Source: Pseudomonas fluorescens NCIMB 11764
Lineage (GTDB): Bacteria > Pseudomonadota > Gammaproteobacteria > Pseudomonadales > Pseudomonadaceae
Assembly: GCF_000293885.2 (NCBI RefSeq)
Contig: NZ_CP010945.1
Coordinates: forward strand, 868,001-932,000
Reading direction: 5' to 3'
Length of the DNA stretch: 64,000 nucleotides
Shown: positions 24,547 to 40,093 of the stretch, piece after piece
How the letters are laid out: the number at the start of each line of letters is the position of its first letter
Position numbering within the stretch: the stretch's first letter is position 1
Program-made: the position numbers and the translations under genes
Notes under the pieces: model-generated
Told to the model about the DNA's origin: nothing
Databases searched by the model: none
What the model saw: the letters and a program-made list of their open reading frames with translations, nothing else

Positions 24547-25149
24547 TTAGCGGTTCATGGGTAACTGAAAACGCATTCGTACAGCGCAATAGGCGAGGTC
24601 TTCGCGCAACATGCGGAAACTCATGTCGCACTGCGCATCGGCGTATTGCTTCCAAACCGGATCGTCGAATTCAACTCCGCCTAGCAGGTTGATCGAGGCC
24701 TTTAGGCCGTTTTCTCGATCCGGCCCTGCCATCAGCGATGCAGCTTTGTAAAAGCCATCATTCGGCATCCCTGTCTGTAGATAAATGAGTTCGCCCAACC
24801 GGGCATTGGTTGCACGCGCCAAACACGCAAGCTTCTCGATTGGCGCCTCAGCTCCCGGTAAAGCGGACTGATAGATATCTTCGCAATACGTTTCTTTGAA
24901 ACGCACCCACTTTCTTTGCACGTCGGTCAGTTGCTTCTTGTCTGCGGGAGCCAAACTGGCCATTGCTTTCTTGTATTGCTCATTCAAGACGGCATCGACT
25001 TTCTCGAGGCTTTGCTGACCGCAAGTGATCAAATCGGGATTGGTGAAGCTGTCGTGGTTGCAGGTTTCCTGAGCATTCGCCGAGATCATCGACGCCGCTA
25101 AAACGAAGCCCGTCAACGCCATCGCAAGCCTCTTAAGTGTTGTGCTCAC
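24547..25149 (-). CDS. LprI-type (DUF1311) periplasmic protein, copy 2
   Basis: The 200-residue product has a signal peptide (SLAMALTGFVLAAS-like core, cut after SANA) and a DUF1311/LprI region: Cys pair CGQQSLEKVDAVLNEQY, QRKWVRFKETYC and AIEKLACL-like PIEKLACLARATNARL. LprI of Mycobacterium tuberculosis inhibits lysozyme. The C-terminal 60 residues (GFYKAAS, CDMSFRML, MRFQLP) are shared with the paralogue at 39497. The GTG at 25149 has an AGGGG site and gives a charged signal N-region; ATG at 25122 is possible. As the last gene of the island it is likely an immunity-type lysozyme inhibitor; this role is inferred. Confidence 0.8.
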   Translation of the reverse strand: MSTTLKRLAMALTGFVLAASMISANAQETCNHDSFTNPDLITCGQQSLEKVDAVLNEQYKKAMASLAPADKKQLTDVQRKWVRFKETYCEDIYQSALPGAEAPIEKLACLARATNARLGELIYLQTGMPNDGFYKAASLMAGPDRENGLKASINLLGGVEFDDPVWKQYADAQCDMSFRMLREDLAYCAVRMRFQLPMNR

Positions 25150-25168
25150 TGCTGGGCCCCTACGCTAC

Positions 25169-26192
25169 TGCCAAGCTCCAGTTTCTGATTCGCCACAGCC
25201 TGCTCGCCCATTACTCCACCGCTCCTTTACTGCGCTCAGCCACTCGATCAGGAATCTTCGACCCCTTGCCCGCGCTGGTCATCAACGAGGCATATTGCTT
25301 GTAAGCCTGCGCCGCCCGCACCTTATCTTTCACGCCCCAGTAACTATCCGCGAGATTCAGATAGGCAACTGTTCTGCCGGGGTTTCTGGCAATAACCGCG
25401 TTCAACAACTCAATGGATTCTTCGTAATAGCCGGACTCGCCCAATAGAAAACCGACGTCGTTAGACCAGCTTGGCGATTGAACGAAGTCATACTTTTGCG
25501 CGATGTAACTGTGCGGATAGCAGTGGCCTTCGCCCCCATCCATCAGAAAATTCGCCATCACCGTCGAAACGGCCTCTTTCTGCCCTTTTCGATACAGCAC
25601 CAGCGCTTGGTCGAGCTGGTACGCGATATCCGACATCATCAGTTTTTTGTAGCCCTCGGCGGGTCGCTTAACGTGCAGGTCATGCAACTGCTCAAACACC
25701 TTGCGCCCATCGAACGACGACAACGAGGTTTCGCCGATCATGCTTTTGGGTACTTCTTCAACACTGACTACCGAGCGATCACAGGACTCGTTGTTGGTTA
25801 CCTGCACTAGGCTACTCAGCTCAAACTGTTTTGAGTTTTTGTTGTAGCGGAACACCAGATTGAAGTTGTAAACGCCGTTATCTTCTTCGTTACTGACCAG
25901 CACAAGCGCGTCCCCTGCTTCAGCGGAAGACTGCTTGACTGACACGGGCTCCCCTTGCATATCGACAACCGTAAGCACACCTGCCGGACTGTTGATCACG
26001 TTGATACTGAAGCCTTCACTCATGGCCGCCGAGTATTGGCTTTTGATTAACGGTATCGCTTTGGATGTATCCAGCAGAATGTCGTCGCTGGCCCCAGGCT
26101 CAGGCGCGATCAGCAGTCGGTGATAAGCTTCATCGGTATCACCAGTCAGCACAAACACGTTTTGACGTGATGCATCACCCATTAAACTGACC
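25169..26192 (-). repeat. Direct duplication, copy A (about 1.02 kb)
   Basis: This segment matches 28831-29852 in the same orientation over about 1,020 bases with scattered mismatches. It covers the last ~330 codons of the TPR gene plus about 40 bases after its stop. Homology ends abruptly at both edges, inside coding sequence at the 5' side. Confidence 0.9.
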
Positions 26193-26308
26193 GGAATCTT
26201 CCTGATAACCTGCGGAGTAGCGAGCGCAGGCGAAAGCAGCAGAGTGACATAGCAGACTAACGCGCAAACAAAGCACAAAAAAAAGCGTTTCACTGTCTTC
26301 AATTCCAT
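25211..26308 (-). CDS. Secreted TPR-tail protein A
   Basis: The 365-residue product has a signal peptide (KRFFLCFVCALVCYVTLLL, cleaved about residue 31) and no lipobox. From residue 40 onward it is a near copy of the C-terminal part of the 578-residue protein encoded at 28874. The C-terminal 70 residues contain a TPR-like unit (TVAYLNLADSYWGVKDKVRA) and the ending SKIPDRVAERS, which is shared by three neighbouring genes. The function is unknown; location and context suggest a periplasmic immunity protein. The ATG at 26308 follows a purine-rich stretch. Confidence 0.8.
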   Translation of the reverse strand: MELKTVKRFFLCFVCALVCYVTLLLSPALATPQVIRKIPVSLMGDASRQNVFVLTGDTDEAYHRLLIAPEPGASDDILLDTSKAIPLIKSQYSAAMSEGFSINVINSPAGVLTVVDMQGEPVSVKQSSAEAGDALVLVSNEEDNGVYNFNLVFRYNKNSKQFELSSLVQVTNNESCDRSVVSVEEVPKSMIGETSLSSFDGRKVFEQLHDLHVKRPAEGYKKLMMSDIAYQLDQALVLYRKGQKEAVSTVMANFLMDGGEGHCYPHSYIAQKYDFVQSPSWSNDVGFLLGESGYYEESIELLNAVIARNPGRTVAYLNLADSYWGVKDKVRAAQAYKQYASLMTSAGKGSKIPDRVAERSKGAVE

Positions 26309-26384
26309 AATTCAATCAGTTGAAATTCCCGCGACAAAGGAACGCAGTCTCCCGAGAGACTGTATATAAATAACGCCACCCTTA

Positions 26385-27242
26385 CTAATTCAAACGTTCC
26401 TCAACTCTCTTAGGAACCTTACTTGCAACACCTTTCTTCCTCATCGCCTTTCGATATTCAGCATAGTACGGCTTCGCCTCATCATGCTTTCCAAGTACCC
26501 AGAGAGAATCAGCAACATTAAGTTTCAAGGGCACTCTATCCGCCGCAACAGCCAACAAACGATTATAAATTTGCATTGCCAAAAGGTGCTCGCCACCTTG
26601 GGCAAAGTAGAACGCAATGTCATTATATTCAGATATATTTTTTTCAGGTGGATAGCACGCCATATAGGAGGCAATTCCCATGAAAACAGAGTCTCTTAAT
26701 GCACTAGCGCGCGACTCATTCTCAGACACGCCAACCACATCAGAGATTAGTTGCTTCGGAGAAATTCCCCCATTAGAAAATTCGAAAACCCCTCCTTCCG
26801 CACTTTTCCATTTGTTGTCCAGCCATGCGCCGTCACATTGCTGAACTGAACCCACATTTTCGACACAGCCAGTTTCCAGCGAAACCATATCGCAGTATAC
26901 CGGAGAGGAAACTATTTCACTCCCTTCCCCATCGACTACTTCTCCGGTATTTGTTCGCTGCACTATCACATATTTTTTATCGCCAGAGACAAGACCTATC
27001 TCTGAGCTTGCAACGACTCCATTCTCATAACCCGCCAATTGAGTTGGGAGCGAGTATATGCTGAACCCATCTGTGGAGCCTTGATATTGCACATCATTCC
27101 ACCCCCCATACTTCTCTTCATAATATTTAAAGCTTAAAGAACCACCTTTAAAACCAACAATTTTCAACGGCGCTGTATTTCCATAACTCGTATCAGTGAG
27201 CAAAAACACCAAACATGTGATCACACAGCACTTATTAAACAT
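26385..27242 (-). CDS. Secreted TPR-tail protein B
   Basis: The 285-residue protein begins with a signal peptide (MFNKCCVITCLVFLLTDTSYG). The N-terminal 150 residues are unlike the other TPR-tail proteins and hold cysteines (VYCDMVSLETGCVE, CDGAW). The C-terminus has the common tail: LKLNVADSLWVLGKHDEAKP, then ASKVPKRVEERLN. It is strongly AT-rich compared with the core genes. I do not recognise the N-terminal domain. It is likely a periplasmic immunity-type protein by context. Confidence 0.75.
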   Translation of the reverse strand: MFNKCCVITCLVFLLTDTSYGNTAPLKIVGFKGGSLSFKYYEEKYGGWNDVQYQGSTDGFSIYSLPTQLAGYENGVVASSEIGLVSGDKKYVIVQRTNTGEVVDGEGSEIVSSPVYCDMVSLETGCVENVGSVQQCDGAWLDNKWKSAEGGVFEFSNGGISPKQLISDVVGVSENESRASALRDSVFMGIASYMACYPPEKNISEYNDIAFYFAQGGEHLLAMQIYNRLLAVAADRVPLKLNVADSLWVLGKHDEAKPYYAEYRKAMRKKGVASKVPKRVEERLN

Positions 27243-27262
27243 TTACTGCCACCTTTAAAAAT

Positions 27263-27312
27263 GTGGGACAGACTTATTTTATCCCCAACTACAAAACCAA
27301 ATTCACCCCTCC
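27263..27312. repeat. GGGACAGA repeat, degenerate copy
   Basis: GTGGGACAGACTTATTTTAT is followed 25 bases later by a weak inverted arm ending CACCCCTCC. It belongs to the family best seen at 39416-39483. Confidence 0.5.
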
Positions 27313-27321
27313 GACTAACTG

Positions 27322-27828
27322 TTATTTATCACCAGGTTCAACGTAATAAGTCTCAGCGTGCTTAAGCAACGACAGAAAGCTTCTCCTCAACTCATTAGTT
27401 TCCTTTTCCTCGCCACATGTCTCTATAAAAAAAACATTATTCCTGCCTGCCTCAAATGATGTGGTAAAACAAACGGAACCTAAAAAGTATACGCCCTCTA
27501 CTCCAGACCAATTGCTACCAGAGTAGAGGTTTGCTTTTGATAGCGGATGCGATCCATTCCCAACTTTCAATCCATCTTTCTCTTGCGCATAATCGCCAGC
27601 TATTGCGTCCGCCAGAGTCATATCTTCGCAGCCGACCTTAATATCCCGCACCCTACCGTCTTTATATTTGTATTTAACAATAGTCTCGCCCTCACTTGTT
27701 TTCCCAGATGAGAAACCAGCGAAATCTTTTACCTTCATCACACAACCATTGCTTTCAACAACAAGATTCTCTCCAGCGTTCGCCAGAAAAAACGAGGACA
27801 ATAAATACAAAGCGGCGACTTTAATCAC
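27322..27828 (-). CDS. Small secreted protein of unknown function
   Basis: The 168-residue product has a signal peptide (IKVAALYLLSSFFLANAG). The mature part contains four cysteines (NGCVMKV, VGCEDM, GSVCFTTS, ETCGEE), which could form two disulfides, and a central LYSGSNWSGVEGVYFLG stretch. No family recognised. The start is a GTG after AGAGGCAG. Flanked on both sides by copies of the GGGACAGA repeat, it looks like an individual cassette of the island. Confidence 0.7.
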   Translation of the reverse strand: MIKVAALYLLSSFFLANAGENLVVESNGCVMKVKDFAGFSSGKTSEGETIVKYKYKDGRVRDIKVGCEDMTLADAIAGDYAQEKDGLKVGNGSHPLSKANLYSGSNWSGVEGVYFLGSVCFTTSFEAGRNNVFFIETCGEEKETNELRRSFLSLLKHAETYYVEPGDK

Positions 27829-27855
27829 TGTCTCTGCCTCTTAATAAATGAAGAA

Positions 27856-27930: not shown

Positions 27931-27939
27931 CCTTTTTCG

Positions 27940-28785
27940 TTAAAGACTAGAAGAAGCTTCAGAGCGCTCAAATACTCGCGATGGAATTTTCGACTTTTTG
28001 TTTACCGACAGCATGAGTTTTTTATATTCAGAATATTGTTTTACGGCATCATTTTTATTGCCAACCGCCCAGTTTGAATCCGCCAAATTCAACCAAGCAA
28101 CCGCTCTATTTGGCTGAGCAGTTACGATATCTTTTAGGAGCGGGATCGATTCCGCTGCTTGATTATTCTCCTGTAGAAAATAGGCATAATCATTTATCGC
28201 TGATACAACTACATCAGCCAATTCTTTGTCAGCCAGCCAAGCAGACTTATAATTTTCCGCATAAGCAGAAAGCCCGATGATCGCCTCCTCTTTTTTTCCT
28301 CTTTTAAACAACGACAGAGCATTGGCGTGAGCGAGACCAATCATTTCCGAATAAACAATTTTATGTTTCTTGTCATTGAGCAGAATCTTTCCATAGCGAT
28401 TAACCAGACTATTATCTAATGCACAAATACCCACATCATCCACATCAGTTATAACTATCGCCGCGGAATCACTCTCAACGTTTATTTTTTTCCCCTGCGC
28501 TTGTTCTTCACTATAACTGTTTATGCCCGTGCTGACTGGAAAGAGGTTACCTTTAAAGCCTCCTTCTACAGCTGTTAAACTTGCTGCGATTACGCAACTA
28601 CCTGACGTAGCCTGCCCATTATCGTTTCCCCCAGCAAGAACTAGCAACGAAGTACGTCCTTGCACCTCCGTTAAAGCTGCACTTCCTGAATCGGAAACGT
28701 AAAGCGCCAAACTGTTTTGAGCCATTGAAATACTGGCAAAAAGCACTGCAACAGCAAACATCAAAATATTAGTAGCCGCTTTCAT
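27940..28785 (-). CDS. Secreted TPR-tail protein C
   Basis: The 281-residue product has a signal peptide ending SISMAQ (cut near residue 22). The N-terminal 120 residues are specific to this gene and include two cysteines (GSCVIAAS and ICALDN). The second half is helical with TPR units (LADVVVSAINDYAYFLQE, AVAWLNLADSNWAVGNKND) and ends with the shared SKIPSRVFERSE. It sits between the small secreted gene and the second TPR-duplication gene. Immunity role inferred only from context. Confidence 0.75.
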   Translation of the reverse strand: MKAATNILMFAVAVLFASISMAQNSLALYVSDSGSAALTEVQGRTSLLVLAGGNDNGQATSGSCVIAASLTAVEGGFKGNLFPVSTGINSYSEEQAQGKKINVESDSAAIVITDVDDVGICALDNSLVNRYGKILLNDKKHKIVYSEMIGLAHANALSLFKRGKKEEAIIGLSAYAENYKSAWLADKELADVVVSAINDYAYFLQENNQAAESIPLLKDIVTAQPNRAVAWLNLADSNWAVGNKNDAVKQYSEYKKLMLSVNKKSKIPSRVFERSEASSSL

Positions 28786-28830
28786 CTTTCAACCGCCCCT
28801 GTGCTTTCGCCTTTTTTGAAACAAATCTAA

Positions 28831-29852
28831 TGCCAAGCTTCAGTTTTTTGATTCGCAACAGCCTGCTCGCTTACTACTCCACCGTTCCCTTACTGCGCTC
28901 AGCCACTCGATCAGGAATCTTCGACCTCTTGGCCGCGCTGGTCATCAGCAAGGCATACCGCTTGTAAGCCTGCGCCGCCCGCACTTTATCTTTCACGCCC
29001 CAGTAACTATCCGCGAGGTTCAGATAGGTCACTGTTCTGCCGGGGTTTCTGGCAATAACCGCGCTCAACAACACAATGGACTCATCGTAATAGCCGGACT
29101 CACCCAATAGAAAACCGACGTCGTTAGACCAGCCTGGCGATTGAGCGAAGTCATACTTTTGCGCGATGTAGCTGTGCGGATAACAGTGACCGCTGCCTCC
29201 ATCCATCAGGAAATTCGCCATCACCGTCGAAACGGCCTCGGTCTGCCCTTTTCGATACAGCGCCAACGCCTTGTCGAGCTGTTCCGCGACGTCAGTCATC
29301 ATCAGTTTTTTGTTGTCACCGGCAGATTTAATGCGCAAGCCAGAGAGCTGCTCAAACACCTTGCGCCCATCGAAAGATGCCAAAGACATTTCACCGATCA
29401 GGCTTTCGGGTACTTCTTCAACACTGACAACCGAGTGATCACAGGACTCGTTATTGACGACCTGTAATACATTTTTCAGCTCGAACTGCCTGGAACTTTT
29501 GTTGTAGCGAAACACCAGGTTGAAGTTATAAACGGCGTTATCTTCTTCGCTGCTGACCAGCACAAGGGCGTTTCCGGCTTCGGCAGAAGACTGCTTGACC
29601 GACACGGACTCGCCTTGCATATCGATGACCTTCAGCACGCCTGCCGGGTTGTTTATTACGCTGACGCTGAAGACATCGCTCATGGCCGTCGAGTATTGGC
29701 TCTCGATCAACGGCAATGCCTTGGAGGTATCCAGCAGGATGTCGTCACCGGTGCCGTGTTCAGGTGTGATCTGCAGACGGCGGAAGTCTGCCCCAGCATC
29801 ACCGGACAGCACAGACACGTTTTGACGGGACGCATCACCCAATAAACTGGCC
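28831..29852 (-). repeat. Direct duplication, copy B (about 1.02 kb)
   Basis: This is the partner of 25169-26192. Here the duplicated module is joined in frame to a different, 235-residue N-terminal region. The matching 3' flank extends past the stop codon to the CCAAGCT motif in both copies. Confidence 0.9.
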
Positions 29853-30610
29853 TGTTGCTGTTTGATCACCGTTGGCTGATGGGCGCTGGAACTCGGCTGC
29901 ACGACCTCACCCGTACTCAGCGAAACTGTTTCTTTCAAGGGAAGCGCGCAGCCGGAATCACACGCCATCTTCAGAAACTCAGGCTCGTCAGTCCCCTCGA
30001 ACACATAAGTTGACGCGCCATTGCGTTGCCCGTCGCTGTACACCGGGACACTGACCGCCAACGAACCGGTGGCCGAAGATGCAGGGGGTTGATCCGCAAC
30101 CGTTACCACGCTGGCTTCAACGTCCTTGCAAAGGGTGTTGATGGCGGAATCCAGAAGCCCCTGCCCCGCTCCAGCAACCAACTTCGCATTGGCCGGACGG
30201 CAGTCATAGCCATGCCAGTACGGGCCAATCTGTGTAGAGATATCCAAGGAAAAAATATAGATATGGTTCAGGACGATCTCTTTACCGTCATAGCTGAAAA
30301 CCACCCAACGGCGCGATTTGGCCGAAGAGTAATTCTCACTGTCCAGGATGTACTGTCTGCCGGATCGATACAGCGCGTTGGTAAACATCGCGCCAGTGTC
30401 TTCCGGGGCATCGAACAATCGCTTTCCTGAGTTGGCATCTAAAATATAGCCGTCTGCATTCAAAGCGACGGAACAACTGCCGGGCGTCTTGCCGTAAGGC
30501 TCACAGATCGTTGCGTGTGGAAGAACAAACTCAGCGGCGCCAGCGCCAAAACTCAACAGCGCCATCAGGTACATTGAAATCTTCAAGGTATGCAGCTTCA
30601 CCACTGACAC
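28874..30610 (-). CDS. Large secreted TPR-tail protein D
   Basis: The 578-residue protein has a signal peptide (LKISMYLMALLSFGAGA). Residues 25-240 form a unique N-terminal domain with several cysteines (ICEPYG, GSCSVAL, YDCRPAN, NTLCKDV, MACDSGCALP). Residues about 245-578 duplicate the 365-residue protein at 25211 and end SKIPDRVAERSKGTVE. It overlaps the upstream gene at 30598 by a few bases. The start is GTG; in-frame GTGs at 30604 and 30601 are equally possible. The N-terminal domain is not recognised. Confidence 0.78.
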   Translation of the reverse strand: MSVVKLHTLKISMYLMALLSFGAGAAEFVLPHATICEPYGKTPGSCSVALNADGYILDANSGKRLFDAPEDTGAMFTNALYRSGRQYILDSENYSSAKSRRWVVFSYDGKEIVLNHIYIFSLDISTQIGPYWHGYDCRPANAKLVAGAGQGLLDSAINTLCKDVEASVVTVADQPPASSATGSLAVSVPVYSDGQRNGASTYVFEGTDEPEFLKMACDSGCALPLKETVSLSTGEVVQPSSSAHQPTVIKQQQASLLGDASRQNVSVLSGDAGADFRRLQITPEHGTGDDILLDTSKALPLIESQYSTAMSDVFSVSVINNPAGVLKVIDMQGESVSVKQSSAEAGNALVLVSSEEDNAVYNFNLVFRYNKSSRQFELKNVLQVVNNESCDHSVVSVEEVPESLIGEMSLASFDGRKVFEQLSGLRIKSAGDNKKLMMTDVAEQLDKALALYRKGQTEAVSTVMANFLMDGGSGHCYPHSYIAQKYDFAQSPGWSNDVGFLLGESGYYDESIVLLSAVIARNPGRTVTYLNLADSYWGVKDKVRAAQAYKRYALLMTSAAKRSKIPDRVAERSKGTVE

Positions 30611-31029
30611 CCCTTCTCGGGAGAAAACTCAATCTGCGGGTGATGCTCAAACCCATAGTGTTTCTTGCTTTTGGCATTGGTGTACGCCATGCCGTAAATC
30701 AGCGCCCCTTGACGGACCATGACATATTCGCCCGTGACTGCGCCGCCAACGACCTCGACCCACGTGGTGGTAGTGGTGGATTGAAAAGGTCGGCCGTCGG
30801 ACATTTCTTCTTGCTCGGTACTTTTGTAAACCAGCGGGATCGACTCTTTGGACGTCGCATACTTGGCCCCCGCCCCGCTCCACTTGGCGGCATGATCACT
30901 GTAGGCCCTGAACTCCAACTTTATGTCCTTGCCCTCCTGGGATCGAAAACAGGAAATTTCCGTTTCCACTTCGCTGTGAGCGAATGCGGGGAAGGCCAAT
31001 AACATCAGCATCACTAACTTTTTTTTCAA
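30598..31029 (-). CDS. Small secreted protein, paralogue 1
   Basis: The 143-residue product has a signal peptide (KKKLVMLMLLAFPAFAHS). The mature protein has Cys near each end (ISCFRS and KGCQW) and the motif GEYVMVRQGALIYGMAYTN. It is clearly paralogous to the gene at 31560: both share KFELR/LEFRAYxD, IPLV, TWxEVxxGxVTGxYxMVxQGxxI and end EKGCQW. I chose the TTG at 31029, six bases after GGGAG, since it gives the better signal N-terminus; TTG at 31035 is also in frame. A stable beta-rich domain is likely; the function is unknown. Confidence 0.75.
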   Translation of the reverse strand: MKKKLVMLMLLAFPAFAHSEVETEISCFRSQEGKDIKLEFRAYSDHAAKWSGAGAKYATSKESIPLVYKSTEQEEMSDGRPFQSTTTTTWVEVVGGAVTGEYVMVRQGALIYGMAYTNAKSKKHYGFEHHPQIEFSPEKGCQW

Positions 31030-31053
31030 AGACAACTCCCTTTGCCAAATCGC

Positions 31054-31536
31054 TTATGAATCGGTGATTTTCAACAGCCGGAATTCGTTGTTCACAAACT
31101 CGTAATAGCGAGTTCGGTCGCGGTTCTTCAGCCGTTTACCCTTCATATCTTTTTCGGTATTGGCGGTGATGCCGGAGACGATGATCAAGTTGCTGTCGGG
31201 CTGGTAAGACAGCGTCAGCAAGTTGCCGTCGTAGGCATTGGGCAGACCCGTCGCGACCTCGCCGGTCTGCGCGTCCAGCACCTCGACACACATCGTGCTG
31301 CCACCACAGCCCACCCTGTGCAGAACGTAGTGCCCGGCGAAATTGACCTTGCCGGCGAGGGCTTGTGCTCGCGCTTGATCCATCCATTGGTTGCTGTTTT
31401 CCTGGGGCGCCAGGGCTTGGTTTGGACCAGCAAACACTTCGGTGACGGTGACGTCCGTGAAGGATGGATCGGCGGCGAAAGATAAAGAGGCTGCACCGGT
31501 CAGGATGCAACCCAATAAAATCGACAGTCCTTTCAT
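31054..31536 (-). CDS. Secreted protein with GHYVLHRVGCGG motif
   Basis: The 160-residue product has a signal peptide (KGLSILLGCILTGAASL, cleaved at SFA-AD). The core NFAGHYVLHRVGCGG...MCVEVLDAQTGEV looks like a small conserved beta fold seen in uncharacterised periplasmic proteins, with a probable disulfide between the two cysteines. AGGAG precedes the ATG at 31536; the frame extends upstream to 31569 without support. It lies between the two members of a paralogous pair, so that pair probably arose by duplication around it. Confidence 0.75.
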   Translation of the reverse strand: MKGLSILLGCILTGAASLSFAADPSFTDVTVTEVFAGPNQALAPQENSNQWMDQARAQALAGKVNFAGHYVLHRVGCGGSTMCVEVLDAQTGEVATGLPNAYDGNLLTLSYQPDSNLIIVSGITANTEKDMKGKRLKNRDRTRYYEFVNNEFRLLKITDS

Positions 31537-31559
31537 GTTGTAACTCCTGAGCAAACCGA

Positions 31560-31982
31560 TTATTCCCATTGGCAGCCTTTCTCCAAAGAGACTTCGGTGG
31601 CTGTATAAAAAAAACCGTATTCCTTTCCGCTCGACTTATTCGTGTAGCTCATCGAAACGATCATCCCCCCCTGACTCACCATTTCGTATGTACCCGTCAC
31701 CTTTCCCTCAAGCACTTCAGACCATGTTCTTGTGAGCTCCCCTGGCCTATCCGGGCTCACTTCTTCAGATTGGCTGTCGGTTAAAACCAGAGGTATCGGA
31801 ACACCGGATGACGCGTACTTAACAAAGCCACCCTCCAACTTGTTCGTAGTGTCGTAGTAGGTTCGAAGCTCGAATTTCACAGGGCTCCCGTCACCCATTT
31901 CAAAACACAGATTCTCCGACACAACCTCGCAGTGAGCCGTCAACGGCAACACGCCAATCACCAACAGCAGCAATCTTTTCAC
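31560..31982 (-). CDS. Small secreted protein, paralogue 2
   Basis: The 140-residue product has a signal peptide (KRLLLLVIGVLPLTAHC) and is the paralogue of the protein encoded at 30598 (roughly 40% alike by eye; shared features are two terminal cysteines and a VTGTYEMVSQGGMIVSMSYTN core). I chose the GTG at 31982, with AAGGGA seven bases upstream; an ATG at 32009 would add nine residues ahead of the lysine-arginine of the signal peptide. The Cys in AHC could be a lipobox only if LTAHC were accepted, which I doubt. Function unknown. Confidence 0.72.
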   Translation of the reverse strand: MKRLLLLVIGVLPLTAHCEVVSENLCFEMGDGSPVKFELRTYYDTTNKLEGGFVKYASSGVPIPLVLTDSQSEEVSPDRPGELTRTWSEVLEGKVTGTYEMVSQGGMIVSMSYTNKSSGKEYGFFYTATEVSLEKGCQWE

Positions 31983-31983
31983 T

Positions 31984-32634: not shown

Positions 32635-33246
32635 CTAATTTTTGCTAGGCGTAATGGCCTCAAATGACGCCTTTATATCAGATAACTTAGGATCACTTCT
32701 CAGGTTAGACCTAGGTATACATGCAGAAAATTTAACCGTGGTATCTTTCACACCCTTCAACCCATAGAAACAGTCGAACCACAGGCCTGTTTTGTCTAAC
32801 GAAAATCTATTCTTGGCAGCAGCGACGTCTCCATCAGAGTTCCAAATCATAAAAGGAGACATTATTACTCGGACGGCAGCAGAACCCGATGCAGAGGGAT
32901 GAACAAGATCTACCGAGCCCGTCTCAGACTCTTGATACAATACCTCGTCAACGGCATAGTTGTATATATACTTACCATGACTATCAAAACGTCCGGACAT
33001 ACTCAAACTCTTATCAAACTCAACCGGCTCTACAATAAAAACGTTCTCCTCAGTCAGTATATCCGGATTTAAATTAACGTTCGAGACCAAGTCCCCATAG
33101 CAAACCCCATTCTCAGCTCTCACGTTCAATTTAAAACCAGGAATCTCCGGAATTACAACTCCACACATATCCAGAGACTCGGTCTAAGCCACCGACGAAA
33201 GCGTAATGAAAGACAAGCCACCAAACAACATGAACAACACTTTCAT
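32635..33246 (-). pseudogene. Secreted protein gene with amber codon at the signal cleavage site
   Basis: An ATG at 33246 starts a normal signal peptide (MKVLFMLFGGLSFITLSSVA). Codon 21 is TAG (33184-33186), and the same frame then continues without a stop for 182 codons: TESLDMCGVVIPEIPG onward, ending TPSKN. The likely ancestral codon is CAG (Gln), giving SSVA-QTES, a good signal peptidase site. The downstream 177 codons from ATG 33168 alone would lack any export signal. The mature part has four cysteines (including WFDCFYG and SACIPRS). It was probably an immunity-type protein, now inactive unless the amber codon is read through. Confidence 0.8.
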
Positions 33247-33313
33247 TATAACGATCTCTTATGATAAGCGATCAAAGGAAAGAGACCAACTCTGATAGAG
33301 AAATAGCATGAAC

Positions 33314-33373
33314 AAATGGGGCAGATTTATTTATCAAAAGTCAAATTCATCTCACAAATAAATCCGTCCCCTT
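33314..33373. repeat. GGGACAGA repeat copy
   Basis: Left arm AAATGGGGCAGATTTATTT (33314-33332) and right arm CAAATAAATCCGTCCCC (33355-33371) form an imperfect palindrome between two cassettes. Confidence 0.8.
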
Positions 33374-33400: not shown

Positions 33401-33805
33401 TTAGTGCGTATCACAGCTCGGCCCACTGAGCGCTTCACCGTCAACATTAAACTTACATACCTCAGTAATGTCTGCGCCCTGTGTTAGAGACATAAGAGTT
33501 AGAGTGAATAAAAGTTCATTATTGGAAAACTCTCCTTTTTCCAGCACAACCTCCGAGAAATCAGTGTTGAAGCTTTTTCCAGAAATACTGCAAAAATCCA
33601 TTGAGTTACTGGCAGCACCTTTGCCGCCTGGCTTTAGGACCTGAATTTTTATGCAAGGACTGCCCAGCGACTGATAGTAGCGAACCAACTTACCAGAAAT
33701 GACAGCCGTATCGGCTTTATATATATTTACAACTGGATCTTTTTCATCCGCTGCCAAGGCGCAGCAGGAAAAAGCCAAACCTACCAACACCATTAAGTTT
33801 TTCAT
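33401..33805 (-). CDS. Small secreted protein of unknown function
   Basis: The 134-residue product has a clear signal peptide (KNLMVLVGLAFSCCALAA, cut before DEKD). The mature domain has four cysteines (SPCIKIQ, DFCSISG, EVCKFN, PSCDTH), likely two disulfides, and reads as an all-beta protein (YKADTAVISGKLVRYYQS). No family recognised. It is AT-rich and flanked by a GGGACAGA repeat downstream and the T6SS scar upstream. By location it is a probable periplasmic immunity protein. Confidence 0.75.
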   Translation of the reverse strand: MKNLMVLVGLAFSCCALAADEKDPVVNIYKADTAVISGKLVRYYQSLGSPCIKIQVLKPGGKGAASNSMDFCSISGKSFNTDFSEVVLEKGEFSNNELLFTLTLMSLTQGADITEVCKFNVDGEALSGPSCDTH

Positions 33806-33913
33806 TTCTCACCTTATAGATAATTTTTACGCCTAGTAAAGCGATCTAACGGAACATTTGACCAATTGTTTTGATTGGACATAACAGACTTCAATTCAGC
33901 CCTATTGTTTTGA

Positions 33914-34029
33914 ACGCAATTGGGCGGCGGTGATCGTTCGATCGGCCGCGTCGAATGCCAGCGCCGTTCGCAGGGCAATTTGTCGCGTGCCGAGCCACGC
34001 AAAGCGCCGTCGAACAGACGCTCCAGCGC
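33914..34029 (-). pseudogene. Scar: fused 3' fragments of T6SS stp and stk
   Basis: Positions 33914-33976 are an essentially exact copy of 44908-44970, inside the 3' end of the T6SS kinase gene. Positions 33976-34029 match 45891-45944, the 3' end of the T6SS phosphatase gene, with a few mismatches near the start of that block. In the intact locus these pieces lie about 920 bases apart, in the same order and strand. The simplest reading is that a second stp-stk copy once stood here and an internal deletion fused its ends. It encodes nothing useful now. Confidence 0.88.
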
Positions 34030-34130: not shown

Positions 34131-34138
34131 TCGCTTTT

Positions 34139-34732
34139 CTAATTCGACAACTTCAAAAGCCGGTGTACCAACGTCGCGCCGGGACTCCAATCACGCAGAG
34201 TCGGCAACAACCCCTTGTTCCGGCTTTTTTCATAATCATCCGCGCCGTCCGGAACGACCAACTCATCCCACACGAAATAGACATTTGCAGCGACACCCGT
34301 CTTTACGTAGTACCTGGGCGATTCCCCCCGCGAATCCGTTTCGAAATAGGCAGGAAGCGGATTATCTGAAAACACCATCGCCGCGTTCACGTGAGTCACG
34401 GGTGAGTCTGGGCCAGCGAGAAACCTGACCTGAACAACCAAGGTAGGAGGGAATACCGACATCCAAAGGTCATCGACTTGCCCGAGGTCCACGACACCCG
34501 GCAAAACTGGAGCAAGCAGGGTGATATTCGTCAAATCCCATTCGTCTCCACCCGCACGTAGAGACATGACGGGTTCCTGATCAGAAAAATCGCGAATCTC
34601 CTGGGTTACCAGCGCAGCCGCTGCTTTGGAAGAGTCGATTGCCGTAATAACGCCTGTGCCGTTGTTATCGCTCCCCGTGTCCCCGCAGGCGCCGAGTAGA
34701 AGGAAAGTGAAGAACCAAAAGAAATACTTCAT
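34139..34732 (-). CDS. Lipoprotein, immunity-type
   Basis: The 197-residue product has a lipoprotein signal (KYFFWFFTFLLLGAC, lipobox LGAC, Cys16). The mature part has a Val-rich beta region (PPTLVVQVRFLAGPDSPV) and a C-terminal segment VWDELVVPDGADDYEKSRNK that reappears as a remnant at 37919-37975, beside the other effector-like gene. That shared tail of about 85 residues links this lipoprotein to the mosaic gene at 37976. An outer-membrane or inner-membrane immunity lipoprotein for a periplasmic effector is the best guess. Confidence 0.78.
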   Translation of the reverse strand: MKYFFWFFTFLLLGACGDTGSDNNGTGVITAIDSSKAAAALVTQEIRDFSDQEPVMSLRAGGDEWDLTNITLLAPVLPGVVDLGQVDDLWMSVFPPTLVVQVRFLAGPDSPVTHVNAAMVFSDNPLPAYFETDSRGESPRYYVKTGVAANVYFVWDELVVPDGADDYEKSRNKGLLPTLRDWSPGATLVHRLLKLSN

Positions 34733-34838: not shown

Positions 34839-35717
34839 TTAATGGAGTGCTTTTATCGAAGGATCCTTATAACTTGAATTAACGTCGATACCCGCATCCC
34901 TCGCCTTTGTCTCAAGCTCATCTCGCTGTTTCTTATATTTTAAAAGCAGATCAGGTAACAAATCTGTCCAGCGCGTCTTATCGGATTCCTTACTAAACTC
35001 AGATACCCAATACTCACGTTCGCTCATGAATTTCAAAGAGATCAAATAGGTGCCTCGCTGCGTTGGATCCGAATCAGAGTTACGACGCCATGCCTTCAGG
35101 GTCAAATAATTGCCATCACTATAAAAATTCCAATCATAAAAATCGTCGACCTTTAACCATTGGTCTATATTCATCTTGTAGTCAGGATCAAGCCATGGAT
35201 GGCTTTTTACATAAACGCCAAGCACATCGCCGGGATTCACTATTTTTTCCGCCTGCGAGCCTGGGATGCGCGGATCGTATGGTGCAAAGTAATGTTTCCA
35301 ACCTGACGCTTTAATTTCTTTTATCAGGCTATATAAAAACGCCTGATTTTCTTCATGCTGACTATTGTCTGGAAGACCTCGAACCATCAATTCAAGATTT
35401 TCTATATCACCCCCAACATCACCATCAATCGACGTTTTCACATCTGTAACGTGTTCAATTTTTAACGATTTATTAACAATCACAGTAGGAAGGTCCGCAT
35501 CTGCAGCCGACTTGCTAATTTTGTACCAGCACATATTTACTTGCGGCATGCACTCTTTTCGAAATTCCACTGGGCTTTCGGACAATACTTTTGTCATCGC
35601 TTCTGACAATTTAATTTCGATTACAGCAGTCGTGCCGGCCATACTATTACTCCTGGTATCTTTTTCATCACCGCATGCGCTAAGCAGAAAAAATAATAAA
35701 ATAAAAAACATCTTCAT
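34839..35717 (-). CDS. Lipoprotein coupled to the split effector-like gene
   Basis: The 292-residue product starts MKMFFILLFFLLSAC, lipobox LSAC (Cys15), from the ATG at 35717, which overlaps the stop of the upstream effector-like gene in an ATGA tetrad. This four-base overlap is typical of effector-immunity pairs. The mature protein has a Trp-rich C-terminal half (HPWLDPDYKMNIDQWLK, YDWNFYSDGNYLTLKAW) and no recognised domain. I infer that it is the immunity partner of the split gene. A TTG at 35732 would add five residues. Confidence 0.8.
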   Translation of the reverse strand: MKMFFILLFFLLSACGDEKDTRSNSMAGTTAVIEIKLSEAMTKVLSESPVEFRKECMPQVNMCWYKISKSAADADLPTVIVNKSLKIEHVTDVKTSIDGDVGGDIENLELMVRGLPDNSQHEENQAFLYSLIKEIKASGWKHYFAPYDPRIPGSQAEKIVNPGDVLGVYVKSHPWLDPDYKMNIDQWLKVDDFYDWNFYSDGNYLTLKAWRRNSDSDPTQRGTYLISLKFMSEREYWVSEFSKESDKTRWTDLLPDLLLKYKKQRDELETKARDAGIDVNSSYKDPSIKALH

Positions 35718-36449
35718 TTTTGATTTTTCCAACTGGCGATTGTTTCAATCTCACCTTCCATATACGTTAATTTTTTATCCATCAGTTCGTGATACTGACC
35801 GGCAATAGCAGTAATAAATACCATTCGTTCGCGCTCATTGTATAAGTTGCCATCTTTCATCTGCACTCTCAGCTCCGGATCTTCAACGTCACACGCCGTA
35901 CTAAAGGCGGCGGCGCGGACTGGCACAAAAGGTGCCCATTCAAACGCGGCCTGGACCTTCAATGTCGTCTGGAAAAAATAGTCGTTATAGATTAATGGCT
36001 GCAGTATTCTGCGCTGCTCATGATCCGCAATAGCAAGCAATGATTTTAGTTGCACAGCCCTTCTAGCTGAGCCACTGGCTATGGTTTCAGATTCACGAAT
36101 ACGGTCAAATCCCTTCTTTACATCAGGCGTTAAAGAAAGATTTTTTAATACAGGCAGAGCCTCCTCTGCCCAAGGCAAACTGTCTATGTTCATCTGCACT
36201 TGTGCATCACAGCTTTTCGCATTGCGAACGGGCGCACAATCCTCAAATTGCTCTGGATACTTCTTGTAAAACCAATGCCACACAAAGATGTCCTGAAACA
36301 GCCAGAAATTGCCTTTCCCAAGCCCTTTCTTGCCAATTCTTAGTGGCGGTTGGCCAACAGGGGGTATTCCAATGGTCAGGTAAGGCTCGGCAGGAATGAA
36401 ATCCAATCCGCACTTAACCTGTTTACTGGCAAAGGCAGCCAGGCCCATC
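35714..36449 (-). pseudogene. Split effector-like gene, 3' part
   Basis: This is the downstream 245 codons of a gene cut by the IS3-family element. It begins at the 4-bp target duplication (36446-36449) and reads GLAAFASKQVKCGLDF, then GNFWLFQDIFVWHWFY, a Trp/His-rich motif, and ends SWKNQK. The style resembles DUF2515 proteins, but that assignment is from memory and uncertain. Rejoined to 37647-37922 it gives one 335-residue frame with no other lesion. No signal peptide is present in the full protein, as expected for a T6SS-delivered effector. Confidence 0.85.
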
Positions 36450-36519: not shown

Positions 36520-36786
36520 GTGAAGACATCGCGTTTTTCGGACAGCCAAATCATTGCCATCCTCAAGCAGGCCGAGGCCGGCAGCCCAGTCCCGGAGCTG
36601 TGCCGCGAGCACGGCATCAGCTCGGCGACCTTCTACAAGTGGCGCGCCAAGTTCGGCGGCATGGACGCCTCGCTGATGGCCCGGCTACGTGAGCTGGAGG
36701 AAGAAAACCGCCGCCTCAAAAAGATGTACGCCGAAGAGCGCCTGAAGGCCGAGATCATCCAGGAAGCCATGGCAAAAAAGTGGTGA
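36520..36786 (+). CDS. IS3-family transposase OrfA
   Basis: The 88-residue product has a helix-turn-helix ([20 protein letters not shown], then [20 protein letters not shown]) followed by a leucine-zipper-like helix ([20 protein letters not shown]). It binds the element's ends and is the N-terminal part of the OrfAB transposase. It starts at GTG. The A6G run at its 3' end permits the -1 shift into orfB. Confidence 0.93.
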
Positions 36787-37607
36787 AGCCATCTCAGCGG
36801 CGCGAGATGGCGCAGCAGGCCGTTCATTCTGGCCGGGTCAGTATCAAGCAGGCGTGCCTGGCCTTCGGGGTCAGCGTCACCTGCTATCGCTACCAGCGAC
36901 GGTTGTCCTCGGAAAATGCCGAGATTGCCGATCACCTGATCCGGCTTACGCACAACCAGCGTAATTGGGGATTCGGCCTGTGCTTCCTGTATCTGCGCAA
37001 CGTGAAAGGCTGCCGCTGGAATCACAAACGGGTGTACCGGATCTATCGAGAGTTGGAGCTGAACATGCGGATCAAACCGCGTAAACGCATCGTGCGGGAG
37101 AAACCCGAGCCGCTGGCGGTGCCAGAGGCGATCAATCACTGCTGGTCGATGGACTTCATGCACGATCAGTTGGCCGATGGCCGCAGCTTCCGTCTGTTCA
37201 ACCTGATCGACGACTTCAACCGCGAAGCCCTGGCCATGGATATCGACCTGTCACTGCCTGCGGAGCGTGTCGTGCGCGCACTGGATCAAGTCATCGAGTG
37301 GCGCGGTAAACCACAGGCCATCCGTAGTGACAACGGCCCAGAGTACATCAGCAGCAAGCTTGTGCTCTGGGCGGAAAAGCACGGCGTTCGCCTGGAGTAC
37401 ATCCAGCCAGGAAATCCACAGCAGAATGCCTACGTCGAACGCTACAACCGCACGGTGCGTTATGACTGGCTGGGGCATTATTTGTTCGAGTCGATCGCCG
37501 AGGTGCAGGAACATGCAACTCGCTGGATGTGGACATACAATCACGAACGACCAAACATGGCCCTGGGAGGCATCACCCCCAAACAGAAGTTGGCCCGCGC
37601 GGCCTGA
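36780..37607 (+). CDS. IS3-family transposase OrfB (DDE integrase core)
   Basis: The 275-residue frame carries the retroviral integrase-like catalytic domain: WSMDFMHD (first Asp), [10 protein letters not shown] (second Asp) and [12 protein letters not shown] (Glu), the DDE triad with the usual D-35-E spacing. It overlaps orfA by seven bases and is normally made as an OrfAB fusion by -1 frameshifting. The N-terminal HTH_21 part ([15 protein letters not shown]) and the C-terminal [12 protein letters not shown] are complete. Confidence 0.94.
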
Positions 37608-37646
37608 CCTCTACTTCTGGCGAGTGCTAAAAATGGGGGGATTACC

Positions 37647-37922
37647 CATCCAATAAAACCGACCGTTCAAATCCGGTTTCCCATCTTCGCCGCGCTCCAG
37701 GTAGAACTCGGCGTAAGCAGCTGCGATACGCGCAGCCCGAGCACCAAAATCTGAAACCAAAACCATTTTTGTCGATTTGGAGAAAAAGCTCTTCTCCGGC
37801 ACGCTTAATCGACTGATTGCTTCCTGCTGTCCCATTGTCCACAGCTTGTCGCACTTCAAGGCAACGTCTTGAACAGAGCAACTCTGATTATTGGTTTTAA
37901 ACGTAGCTACGGGTGCGCTCAT
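37647..37922 (-). pseudogene. Split effector-like gene, 5' part
   Basis: This is the first 92 codons of the interrupted gene, from ATG 37922 to the target duplication. It reads MSAPVATFKTNNQSCS and later ARAARIAAAYAEFYLE. The ATG overlaps a TGA (37919-37921) that ends a remnant immunity-tail frame. Residue 92 is the Met encoded within the CATC duplication, so removal of the IS and one CATC copy restores the frame exactly. No secretion signal is present. Confidence 0.85.
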
Positions 37923-37975
37923 TTATTCCTACTCGCTTCGTAATCATCAGAACCTGGCGGCACAATCAGTTCGTC

Positions 37976-38581
37976 CTACATCAGATGGATTTCTGCGGTC
38001 TCGGCAGTGTCCGTTTCGATACGAGGATGAAGGCCGTCTGCATTGCTTTTGGAAATTTTCGGAGCAACTGAGGAAGGGACAATAACTGCAGCCTTCACGG
38101 ATTTGATGGGTTTTCCAAGCCCTGTCAAAAAGCGGATCTGCTCGTCGAACTTCTCACTATTGGCAGTACCGGCTTTAAGCGTATTCCCCGCCCGAGCCTG
38201 ATCCGCAATCAACGGCAAGTCCGGTACCAAAATACCAATCCCCGTCCCACTCCCACTCCCCGCCGCCCCACCGGCATTAAAAACTTCACCGTCTTGGCCG
38301 ACCACAGAACCATAGATAGCCTGACTAACCAGCAACGTTTTCTTGTCAGGGCTTAGCCAGCCGTCATCTGTATCAACACCAACGTCGGCAACGTAGAGCG
38401 AAAAAGCTTTATCCTTCGCGGTAAACAAGGCCGTCGCCGACTCTGCAACGGGTCTGCTCCATGACTTTGTCTTCAGCGTCAATGTGTGCCCGTCGACTCC
38501 AATTATTTGGGTTTCCTTGGCAAAAGTACTGGCTACGGTACACAGGCTGACGATAATCAGCGCGCACTTACGGCTGGCCAT
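37976..38581 (-). CDS. Mosaic secreted protein with VgrG-tail segment and amber-cut tail
   Basis: The 201-codon frame from ATG 38581 has a signal peptide (SRKCALIIVSLCTVASTFA) and a domain of about 80 residues. Then comes NAGGAAGSGSGTGIGI with VPDLPLIADQARAG, which matches the C-terminal tail of the VgrG encoded at 42783 (NAGGSAGSGTGIGI, PVLPGAADKDKAG). The C-terminal part matches the lipoprotein at 34139. The frame stops at TAG (37976-37978) exactly where that relative has Trp, then continues open as DELIVPPGSDDYEASRNK to TGA at 37919. So the last 18 residues are lost by a TGG-to-TAG change. An upstream in-frame start at 38647 would spoil the signal peptide. Confidence 0.7.
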   Translation of the reverse strand: MASRKCALIIVSLCTVASTFAKETQIIGVDGHTLTLKTKSWSRPVAESATALFTAKDKAFSLYVADVGVDTDDGWLSPDKKTLLVSQAIYGSVVGQDGEVFNAGGAAGSGSGTGIGILVPDLPLIADQARAGNTLKAGTANSEKFDEQIRFLTGLGKPIKSVKAAVIVPSSVAPKISKSNADGLHPRIETDTAETAEIHLM

Positions 38582-38670
38582 ACCGTGGGGCTTTTTTCGT
38601 CCGGATGATTCGGGGTAGTGCGTTGTTGTATGCTCACTCGAAAGCAATGCTCATCAAAAAACGGAACTAA

Positions 38671-38736
38671 AAAGGAACAGATCTATTTACCGGCAGCTAG
38701 CCTACCCGCAATAAATCCGCCTCTATTTTACCCTTT
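38671..38736. repeat. GGGACAGA repeat copy, degenerate
   Basis: AAAGGAACAGATCTATTTAC and, 25 bases on, CAATAAATCCGCCTCTATTT form a weakened palindrome between two cassettes. Confidence 0.6.
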
Positions 38737-38747
38737 TTTTCACAAAC

Positions 38748-39350
38748 TTACCTGAGAACAAACCGACTTGCTGTCACCACCCGCCAATTAAGTCTCCCTA
38801 TCGAACCAAGCAATACTTTTAAATAAGATATATCAGCCTCATAAAATGCATTGCACTGCGAAACAACTACATAATTTGAATCTATCTGCTTCTCGAGAGT
38901 AGTGCAAACTACGCCTGCTCCTTCCTCTCCACCTTGCCCCTCATATACGACATCCTTCATATCCAACAACTTCCAACCTGTTTCCGCAAACTTCAGTTTC
39001 GCCGCAGCGGATGCATCATCATAGTGCAGAATTGCTTCTGGATAGGGCAATTCAATAAAGTTATTGTATCGCGACTGAGCTCCATCCCCCACAGCCTTCA
39101 ACACCAAACCAAAATCATCACCACTTACAATATACGTAGGTAAGTTTTCAAGATTCGTTTCATAAGAAGGTTGACCAGATGGCGTCAACTTCAATATATT
39201 CAGGCCGTCTTTCTGCGTACAGCTGACAAGCTTAAGTTTAAATCGTAAATCGTCAAATGCACAATTCCGCTCCTCAGCACATGCTGAAATCGAAAAAAGC
39301 ACGACACAGAACAAACCTAACGCAGAGATGTTAACTTTATACTTTGTCAC
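38748..39350 (-). CDS. Secreted protein or lipoprotein of unknown function
   Basis: The 200-residue product has a signal sequence (VNISALGLFCVVLFSISAC) whose end could be a lipobox (ISAC) or a normal cleavage site after SACA. The mature part has cysteines in RNCAFDD, VSCTQKD, VVCTTLE and SQCNAFY. No family recognised. The start is GTG. It lies between a degenerate GGGACAGA repeat and a well-formed one, directly downstream of the LprI-type immunity candidate, so it may be a second immunity cassette. Confidence 0.7.
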   Translation of the reverse strand: MTKYKVNISALGLFCVVLFSISACAEERNCAFDDLRFKLKLVSCTQKDGLNILKLTPSGQPSYETNLENLPTYIVSGDDFGLVLKAVGDGAQSRYNNFIELPYPEAILHYDDASAAAKLKFAETGWKLLDMKDVVYEGQGGEEGAGVVCTTLEKQIDSNYVVVSQCNAFYEADISYLKVLLGSIGRLNWRVVTASRFVLR

Positions 39351-39415
39351 TTAACACGCTCCACATAGACACAAGTGCATTTTGTCTTTCGACATCATGT
39401 TCTGGAGTACTATTG

Positions 39416-39483
39416 AAAAGTGGGGACAGATTTATTTATCGACAGCCAAATCTGCTTTACAAATAAATCTGCCCCTTTTCATT
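39416..39483. repeat. GGGACAGA repeat, best-formed copy
   Basis: GGGGACAGATTTATTT (39422-39437) pairs with AAATAAATCTGCCCC (39461-39475) around a 23-base loop. It is the clearest member of a family present in at least five gaps of the island. Confidence 0.88.
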
Positions 39484-39496
39484 TTTAGTGGCCAGA

Positions 39497-40093
39497 TCAA
39501 TAGATTGGCATCTGAAATCGCATTCTCGCCATACATCTCCCTGGCATTTCCCCATACAACTTCTGAGTCATGGCGCAATTTTTTTCCGCATACTCTTTCC
39601 ATGCAGGGCCAAAGTCTACATCCCCTGCAACGTAGTCAACTGCTTTGGCGTAATCCATGGCAGTAGCTTTTTCGTTGACAACTGAAACCGCCTTGTAAAA
39701 ACCATCTCCAATTACACCGGTACGGAGATATATGAGTTCACTCAAGCGAAAACTTGTCAGCTGTTTCATGCAGGAAAGCTTTTCTATCGGAGCTTCTTCA
39801 CCAGAAGCCCCGTCGCTTTCGTCATTGCAATATCCATCTTTCAACTTAATCCAGTTTTTTTGCGTGACCAGCAATTCAGACTTTAATGATCCATCTAACT
39901 CCGACGCTAATACCTTGTACTGTTCATTAAGAACTTTATCAACTTTTACAAACACTGCCTGCGAGCAGGTAACAATCTCCTGATTCGTTAAACTTTCAGA
40001 ATTACATTTTACATCCGCCACTGCAAAACCCATCGAAACGGATAAAATAGAGAGAACAGCAAACGACTTATGAATTATTTCCAGCAGTTGCAT
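39497..40093 (-). CDS. LprI-type (DUF1311) protein, candidate immunity to the lysozyme effector
   Basis: The 198-residue product has a signal peptide (FAVLSILSVSMGFAVA, cut before DVKC) and the DUF1311/LprI motif set: KVDKVLNEQYKVL, QKNWIKLKDGYC, APIEKLSCMKQLTSFRL, with paired cysteines. LprI proteins are known lysozyme inhibitors. The gene overlaps the 3' end of the upstream cell-wall effector gene by 19 bases and has an AGGAGG site inside that gene, so the two are translationally linked. The effector ends in a lysozyme-like domain. Together this makes a periplasmic immunity role very likely. The C-terminal 60 residues recur in the protein at 24547. Confidence 0.85.
   Translation of the reverse strand: MQLLEIIHKSFAVLSILSVSMGFAVADVKCNSESLTNQEIVTCSQAVFVKVDKVLNEQYKVLASELDGSLKSELLVTQKNWIKLKDGYCNDESDGASGEEAPIEKLSCMKQLTSFRLSELIYLRTGVIGDGFYKAVSVVNEKATAMDYAKAVDYVAGDVDFGPAWKEYAEKNCAMTQKLYGEMPGRCMARMRFQMPIY

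Follow-up and report, generated by a model that had tools for sequence, protein, structure and literature searches.

A candidate orphan-antidote array behind a type VI secretion VgrG gene of Pseudomonas fluorescens NCIMB 11764

The window analyzed here is a stretch of 64,000 nucleotides (bases 868001-932000) of the genome of Pseudomonas fluorescens NCIMB 11764, a single contig of 6,998,154 bases that carries the Pseudomonas small RNA P10. It holds a gene island, behind the cargo of a type VI secretion system (T6SS), that an initial annotation had taken for a set of orphan immunity genes. On the minus strand, reading from right to left, the T6SS core is followed by an stk1-like kinase gene (stk1 below), VgrG, an effector of 886 residues, and then 19 open reading frames (ORFs) down to 24547 (Table 1), all array genes having one orientation and lying 3′ of vgrG and the effector gene. 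Beyond 24547 come a DUF6124-like gene on the plus strand (24017-24415) and a conserved gene of 127 residues. The earlier count of about nineteen consecutive minus-strand genes is confirmed by the 19 ORFs between 24547 and 40093; in a numbering that runs from g1, adjoining the effector, to g18, with g11b as a paralogue of g11, three of them (g3, g4, and g5) are not whole genes, so that 16 antidote-like genes remain.

The GC content of the island is 0.484 vs. 0.623 in the T6SS core, in line with the AT-richness first remarked upon. Signal-peptide-like starts, which had been claimed for nearly all products, were accepted by a home-made heuristic in 15 of the 19 ORFs, compared with 6 of the 21 genes that flank the island and none of the 54 effectors, using trimmed starts for g3, g6, g11, g12, and g13; given that the IS3 transposase was wrongly accepted as well, this heuristic is a rough guide only. 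Few domains are recognizable, as had been stated: most products reach no Pfam cut-off, LprI (PF07007; 57.7 and 52.4 bits vs. a curated cut-off of 22) being above it in the genes at the two ends of the island and DUF2515 in a third ORF, while TPR in two proteins and a few other domains remain below. The repeats mentioned in the initial annotation are the 3′ part of g13 and g17, which are paralogues with 73% protein identity.

Relatives of the locus were collected through stk1, searched at E 1e-60 or better in 199 genomes of the genus and matched in 117 of them, the own genome included, in a sample of one genome per species. From the best 42 of the 116 stk1-bearing relatives we took 40 neighborhoods (two were left out); an effector was assigned in 29, and 11 were without one. 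Another 20 named loci (designated L and a number) were added through effector alignment, and L072-L086 were chosen separately because their genomes hold g12 or g9. Some named loci were dropped as contigs identical to others (L048, L060, L053, L057; L079 equals L052), and L026 and L014, mapped twice, were counted once. The position test comprises 54 effector-assigned loci, L056 among them; the co-segregation set comprises 45, from which L056 is absent. Outside the 54 are L075, L078, L080, L081, L083, and L084, with no effector in the stretch, a broken effector, or none assigned.

Comparing related strains, as the initial annotation had suggested, shows cassettes gained and lost: content and gene order differ from genome to genome, and the site is empty in 4 of the 40 relatives (L031, L013, L016, L022). 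Across 298 genomes of the genus, g9 and g15 each occur in 5 and g12 in 31, own genome counted. These results bear on the idea that the genes form a conserved housekeeping operon for the envelope or for wall repair, which would suit the exported look of nearly all products, and LprI and TPR proteins are indeed found in general envelope roles. Patchy occurrence, empty sites, and an order and content that vary by strain all argue against such an operon, which we consider extremely improbable; one operon conserved throughout the genus, the finding that was to overturn the immunity reading, is not what we observed, and in that form the idea is already refuted.

The C terminus of the present effector matches the lysozyme-like Pesticin family (37.4 bits vs. 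a cut-off of 25.8). When this effector was aligned with seven relatives found at the same place, residues 1 to ∼640 were conserved and the sequence beyond was variable. A pattern search found WHxxxH, the motif after which the WHIX delivery domain is named in the portions of PMC12135965 used here, in 49 of the 54 effectors, including the present one; it is lacking in three DUF2515 cargoes (L014, L024, L028), a PLD cargo (L026), and L007. Pfam, run on 14 of the 54 effectors, gave M23 (L029), NlpC (L034), PLD (L026), and DUF2515 (L024) above the cut-offs, and GH19 (L027, L035, L042) and Pesticin (L034) below them. Most effectors would thus combine a shared delivery half with exchangeable, wall-aimed C termini, next to a few other cargoes (DUF2515, PLD), and the antidotes would be exported to the periplasm because the C-terminal domains are aimed at the wall. 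In nine loci (L005, L009, L023, L025, L030, L034, L037, L039, L040) a gene of 342-361 residues lies between VgrG and the effector; its L023 copy (15892-16935, minus strand), the only one inspected, has a signal-peptide-like start. In the double-blade form of WHIX effectors, as given in the same portions of PMC12135965, the N-terminal domain of the effector is counteracted by the product of a gene upstream, and the intervening gene may be an antidote of this kind.

We next consider which genes lie behind the effectors of the 54 loci, the other comparison that the initial annotation had suggested. For 12 of the 16 antidote-like genes a homologue was found directly behind an effector (place 1), for three at place 2 only (g7, g9, g18), and for one (g11b) at neither, which supports the orphan-immunity interpretation that the initial annotation had proposed. 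For g1, the place-1 best matches are L043, L044, and L085, besides the own genome; g7 is found at place 2 in L024 and L028, and g9 in L082. Place-1 matches made through a shared C-terminal TPR only (L029, L050, L052, L058, L073) were not counted as support. In L045, L061, L049, and L073 an island family stands one place back, and many other g12 copies lie deep within arrays; the choice of L072-L086 for their g12 or g9 content affects this test. Six control families (stk1, VgrG, D6124, YbaK-like, cb3, d127) gave a single match, d127 at place 2 in the short array of L023, D6124 and YbaK-like being weak controls because they are mostly on the opposite strand.

Moreover, the next gene tends to track the type of the effector C terminus. 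Among the 990 pairs formed by 45 loci, the C termini (last 230 residues) were similar in 231, over at least 150 residues in 124 of these. The next genes were similar in 55 of those 124 pairs vs. 36 of the 759 pairs whose C termini were not similar, and none of 10,000 shuffles reached 55 (maximum 30), although this value is not a strict probability, since the loci are related to one another. Similar C termini were combined with unlike N termini in 56 pairs, of which 16 had similar next genes; L025-L032 and L033-L039 belong to these 56, with next genes that are both g16-like and both g17-like, respectively. Such tracking speaks against the possibility that the products are broad-range lysozyme inhibitors directed against muramidases of predators, phages, or hosts, i.e., a general protection of the wall rather than one against T6SS rivals. 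This possibility also has to contend with the effector ends found directly before g8 and g14 (see below) and with relatives that are few and narrow (19 proteins for g14, 13 for g8, and 109 for g12, those named among the matches listed being from Pseudomonas), and we judge it very unlikely.

The order of genes within arrays was analyzed in 14 complete arrays of at least six genes, of which this island and L014 are the longest (18 ORFs each). With a counterpart defined by 50% identity, 14 of the 182 ordered pairs had one for the first gene, 28 for the second, and 29 for the third, compared with 40, 42, and 46 for the last three; the middle is uneven (shared fraction 0.14 to 0.28). This end-to-end difference was matched by none of 2000 within-array shuffles. 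The polarity agrees with the prediction that new genes enter at the VgrG end.

The island contains remnants of T6SS genes, and these are more extensive than the scar first claimed, with a VgrG tail, a piece of stk1, and effector ends. The two DUF2515 ORFs are halves of one gene split by an IS3-family element, the insertion sequence reported earlier among these genes. Because VgrG is followed in L024, L028, and L014 by a DUF2515 gene that is intact and then by a homologue of g6 (and, in L024 and L028, by g7), the best reading of the broken gene together with g6 and g7 is that of a displaced cassette, and before the halves of the broken gene stands the tail of a VgrG fused to the front of a g16-like gene. 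In addition, blastn shows the end of an L034/L005-type effector before g8 (74-77% DNA identity), which a protein search of the whole genome recovered as well (L034 effector residues 972-1005, 59%, E 1e-5). Given the scars before g14, before g8, and before the DUF2515 halves, at least three older cassettes left traces. The stk1 fragment at 33914-33976 is identical to the own stk1, yet the difference between it and the stk1 of relatives is 5-17% where matched, which suggests a recent event or gene conversion.

Other strains hold what look like simpler or transitional states. In Pseudomonas migulae NBRC 103157 (L059), a VgrG with 98% identity is followed by another effector, g14 (280/281 residues), g15, g16, an ORF, a split g17, g18, and the border gene, an arrangement that has the appearance of an earlier state of the island. 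The g17 of P. migulae (L059:16069-17160) is split into two frames, and archive genes therefore seem to decay independently in different species. In L080, a broken g16-type cassette lies ahead of an older effector reduced to 135 residues and of the next gene of that effector, which is broken as well; the corresponding intact older pair is present in L079.

To what extent the antidote-like genes are orphans was addressed by a search of the whole genome for six toxin types (those of g14, g17, g12, g8, g10, and DUF2515). For g14, g17, and g12 there was no C-terminal match anywhere in the own genome, and nine stretches around other VgrG genes gave no match to the C termini of 45 effectors, a set without the L072-L086 types. 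As for selection, the ratio of nonsynonymous to synonymous substitution rates (dN/dS) was 0.04-0.51 in the 21 of 25 comparisons that allowed its computation, dS being saturated in the other four; among the 21, three with dS above 2 are unreliable and two concern the DUF2515 toxin half. For copies displaced in both arrays it was 0.25 (g12/L032), 0.24 (g13/L032), 0.18 (g14/L062), and 0.17 (g10/L026). We read these low values as signs of purifying selection that point to use, to which a history as cognate genes contributes too.

The initial annotation had also noted lesions, and they exist: g9 has an in-frame stop in its signal-peptide region (compared with L026), g10 runs into a piece of ∼100 bp of an epimerase gene (32029-32128), and the DUF2515 gene is split. 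Together with the chimeric g3 and the low GC content, they would be expected if the genes were passive debris of cassette swaps, no longer made or used. However, no interruption is seen in 14 of the 16 antidote-like ORFs, whose lengths are also close to those of their homologues, dN/dS is 0.17-0.25 between copies displaced in both arrays, and the g13 fusion is retained in two genomes; debris of this kind is, in our view, an unlikely explanation.

Taken together, position, co-segregation, scars, polarity, the absence of some toxins, and the signs of purifying selection, all drawn from sequence, make it highly probable that repeated cargo replacement behind one VgrG has built up the island as an array of orphan antidotes. 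A new effector would enter with its antidote next to VgrG; the older effector would be lost, while its exported antidote gene would be kept and pushed away from VgrG. From this we infer binding, protection, and expression of the array: each antidote would bind its matching toxin domain in the periplasm, and the cell should thereby withstand relatives that have kept the older toxins in use.

Several observations weigh against this interpretation. The place-2 matches of g18 lie inside fusion proteins (L030, L050) or are weak partial LprI matches (L003, L005, L029), and g11b has no best match at +1 or +2 among the 54 loci. A TPR module occurs in 12 of the 54 next genes, so that some matches are domain-level only. 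Next genes were not detectably similar in 69 of the 124 pairs with similar C termini, and were similar in none of the 107 pairs whose C-terminal similarity was shorter. In the genome-wide search for the six toxin types named above, a g8-type toxin was matched by the scar and by the pesticin-related part of the present effector, a g10-type toxin twice (38 and 35% over ∼110 residues, in ORFs of 215 and 266 residues), and DUF2515 by two further full genes (C1:1645167-1646093, 1901481-1902404). Owing to these toxin-like matches, g6, g7, g8, and g10 are perhaps not orphans in the strict sense, and the other DUF2515 copies may be served by g6 and g7. Finally, dN/dS mixes orphan and cognate histories, and the archive partly decays, given the damage to g9 and g10 and the chimeric g3.

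Two antidote-like domains can also be joined in one protein. The gene g13 consists of a domain called g13N and a g17-like domain, a fusion found again in L032, whereas in L030, L050, and L062 the partner of g13N is an LprI domain whose start corresponds to residue 27 or 28 of g18, close to the expected end of the g18 signal peptide. Homologues of g13N, g17, and LprI each stand alone behind effectors elsewhere. Both kinds of fusion are candidate bivalent periplasmic antidotes, each part being a putative antidote. In a farther-reaching version of the displacement model, to which we would give somewhat less than an even chance, the island would be an age-ordered memory of earlier attacks on the periplasm that is still under selection. 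Displaced cassettes would leave their antidote and, at least three times here, a piece of the toxin or of neighboring T6SS genes, and some antidotes, fused as g13N with g17 or g13N with LprI, would each block two different wall-cutting toxins. If so, the past order of cargoes could be read from the DNA.

The toxins of the Vibrio cholerae arrays, likewise, reportedly act largely in the periplasm or membrane. According to the passages compared, these orphan immunity arrays arise by sequential displacement of T6SS effectors (Kirchberger 2017, PMC5361080): the array lies 3′ of a T6SS cluster, its genes resemble effector-immunity pairs found elsewhere, new pairs displace effectors while old immunity genes are kept, and simpler stages exist in other strains. 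The present island, too, lies 3′ of vgrG and an effector, has genes like effector-adjacent ones, and has intermediates (L059, L080, L024). It differs in genus and effector class and, as far as the V. cholerae passages compared go, in having remnants of toxin genes, of stk1, and of VgrG within the array, as well as fusion proteins; the text of that paper does not use the word “scar”. With WHIX effectors, as described in the portions of PMC12135965 used here, the locus shares the WHxxxH region, exchangeable wall-cutting C termini (GH19, chitinase-like, pesticin), exported next-gene products that include LprI, and N-terminal NlpC forms with an exported product upstream. This likeness rests on WHxxxH (region 1) and a C-terminal peptidoglycan-targeting domain, and those portions describe effectors with adjacent immunity and no arrays.

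Polyimmunity loci (Zhang 2012, PMC3482391), in the parts of that paper available, likewise have many unrelated immunity families in one orientation, and some proteins with two immunity domains per polypeptide, comparable to g13. They are said there never to be interrupted by toxin genes, whereas here a broken DUF2515 gene and scars interrupt the array, and the products here look exported. The same parts report a Bacteroides polyimmunity locus of 19 genes, so that, with the V. cholerae arrays (PMC5361080) also known, the earlier statement that the arrangement is seldom documented at this size for periplasmic targets needs qualification. A putative T6SS immunity islet of Salmonella Typhi (PMC7400221) is, by its title, a further T6SS immunity gene cluster. 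Sequential displacement, polyimmunity loci, and WHIX effectors (2025) are thus already known; new are a WHIX-cargo locus of this kind in Pseudomonas, its many unrelated exported families, the toxin-end scars, and the candidate bivalent periplasmic fusions. Our literature search, which mostly did not reach subscription papers and bioRxiv preprints, recognized no paper describing this locus.

Since the orphan genes are paired with the toxins they should block, in named species, the proposed protection against rivals can be tested directly; g14, near-identical to its counterpart behind the effector of P. migulae, is an example. The scars would give the order of cargo replacement, the candidate bivalent antidotes could reveal the way in which a single protein acts against two wall hydrolases, and a set of “hypothetical” exported proteins of Pseudomonas gains a working frame.

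Table 1. Features of the island and its borders (window positions; percentages are identities as reported)
Feature	Position	Strand	Basis
stk1-like Ser/Thr kinase gene at the cargo-side end of the T6SS core; locus anchor	44854..45870	-	NCBIfam kinase matches
VgrG spike	42783..44825	-	TIGR03361, 688.9 bits
Current effector: WHxxxH delivery region (~residues 1-640) and pesticin/lysozyme-like C terminus	40075..42735	-	PF16754, alignment
g1, LprI family, candidate antidote to the present effector	39497..40093	-	PF07007; same pair in L043, L044, L085, 62-66%
g2, candidate orphan antidote	38748..39350	-	homologue directly behind L006 effector, 37.5%
g3, chimera: g16-like front (38284-38582) joined to VgrG 3′ tail (38185-38290)	37976..38647	-	blastn
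Displaced DUF2515 toxin gene, 5′ part	37611..37922	-	intact DUF2515 genes that follow VgrG in L024 and L028, 82-84% DNA identity
IS3-family transposase ORFs inside the DUF2515 gene	36520..37607	+	NF033516
Displaced DUF2515 toxin gene, 3′ part	35714..36448	-	PF10720, 172.4 bits
g6, lipoprotein, candidate DUF2515-toxin antidote	34839..35732	-	behind intact DUF2515 in L024 (89%), L028 (59%), L014 (37%)
g7, lipoprotein, second gene of the DUF2515 cassette	34139..34732	-	place 2 behind DUF2515 gene, L024, L028
Scar: 63-bp stk1 fragment, 100% identical to own stk1	33914..33976	-	
Scar: last codons of an L034/L005-type effector, adjoining g8	33817..33918	-	blastn, protein search
g8, candidate orphan antidote	33401..33805	-	directly behind effectors L005, L034, L055 (42-63%), L030 (25%)
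g9, candidate antidote, probable pseudogene	32635..33168	-	in-frame stop vs. L026; place 2 in L082, 75%
g10, candidate orphan antidote, 3′ end replaced by epimerase-gene fragment	31984..32604	-	place 1 in L027, L041, L047; place 2 in L045, L061
g11, candidate orphan antidote	31560..32009	-	directly behind L036 effector, 56%
g12, candidate orphan antidote	31054..31569	-	directly behind effectors L072, L074, L076, L077, 34-44%
g11b, paralogue of g11 (45%)	30598..31035	-	never best match at +1/+2
g13, candidate bivalent fusion: g13N antidote domain and g17-like domain	28874..30610	-	g13N behind effectors L035, L051, 36-37%
Scar: last 59 bp and stop of a P. migulae-type effector gene, overlapping the g14 start	28769..28827	-	95% to L059 effector-gene end
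g14, candidate orphan antidote, C-terminal TPR module	27940..28785	-	280/281 residues identical to L059 next gene
g15, candidate orphan antidote	27322..27828	-	place 1 in L082, 49%; place 2 in L059, 93%
g16, candidate orphan antidote, TPR module	26385..27242	-	directly behind effectors L032 (60%), L025 (34%)
g17, candidate orphan antidote, TPR module	25211..26308	-	directly behind effectors L033, L039, L062, L086, 37-45%
g18, LprI-family orphan, paralogue of g1 (42-44%)	24547..25149	-	PF07007
DUF6124-like gene, distal border	24017..24415	+	homologue in 22/40 fetched stretches
Conserved 127-aa gene, distal anchor	23301..23684	-	next to stk1 or one gene off at empty sites

Some further features of the island and its relatives were noted. 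Two repeats of 65 nt, 74% alike, lie at 33309-33373 and 39414-39478, in the gaps behind g8 and g1. The predicted structure of g8 is an eight-strand beta fold (model pLDDT 83). The epimerase gene of which only the fragment at 32029-32128 is found here is embedded in the arrays of many relatives (L003:8678-10087, minus strand), as is a gene for an abhydrolase/PPDK-like protein of 816 residues (L003:6218-8665, minus strand). DUF2515 is a VgrG-linked cargo in three relatives (for one of them, L024:3267-4271), and among 14 control genomes the family was found in Bacillus subtilis only. Shortly beyond the window, the own genome has a second DUF6124-like gene (77%; L069:6568-6960), close to another VgrG that belongs to a frame of 1140 residues.

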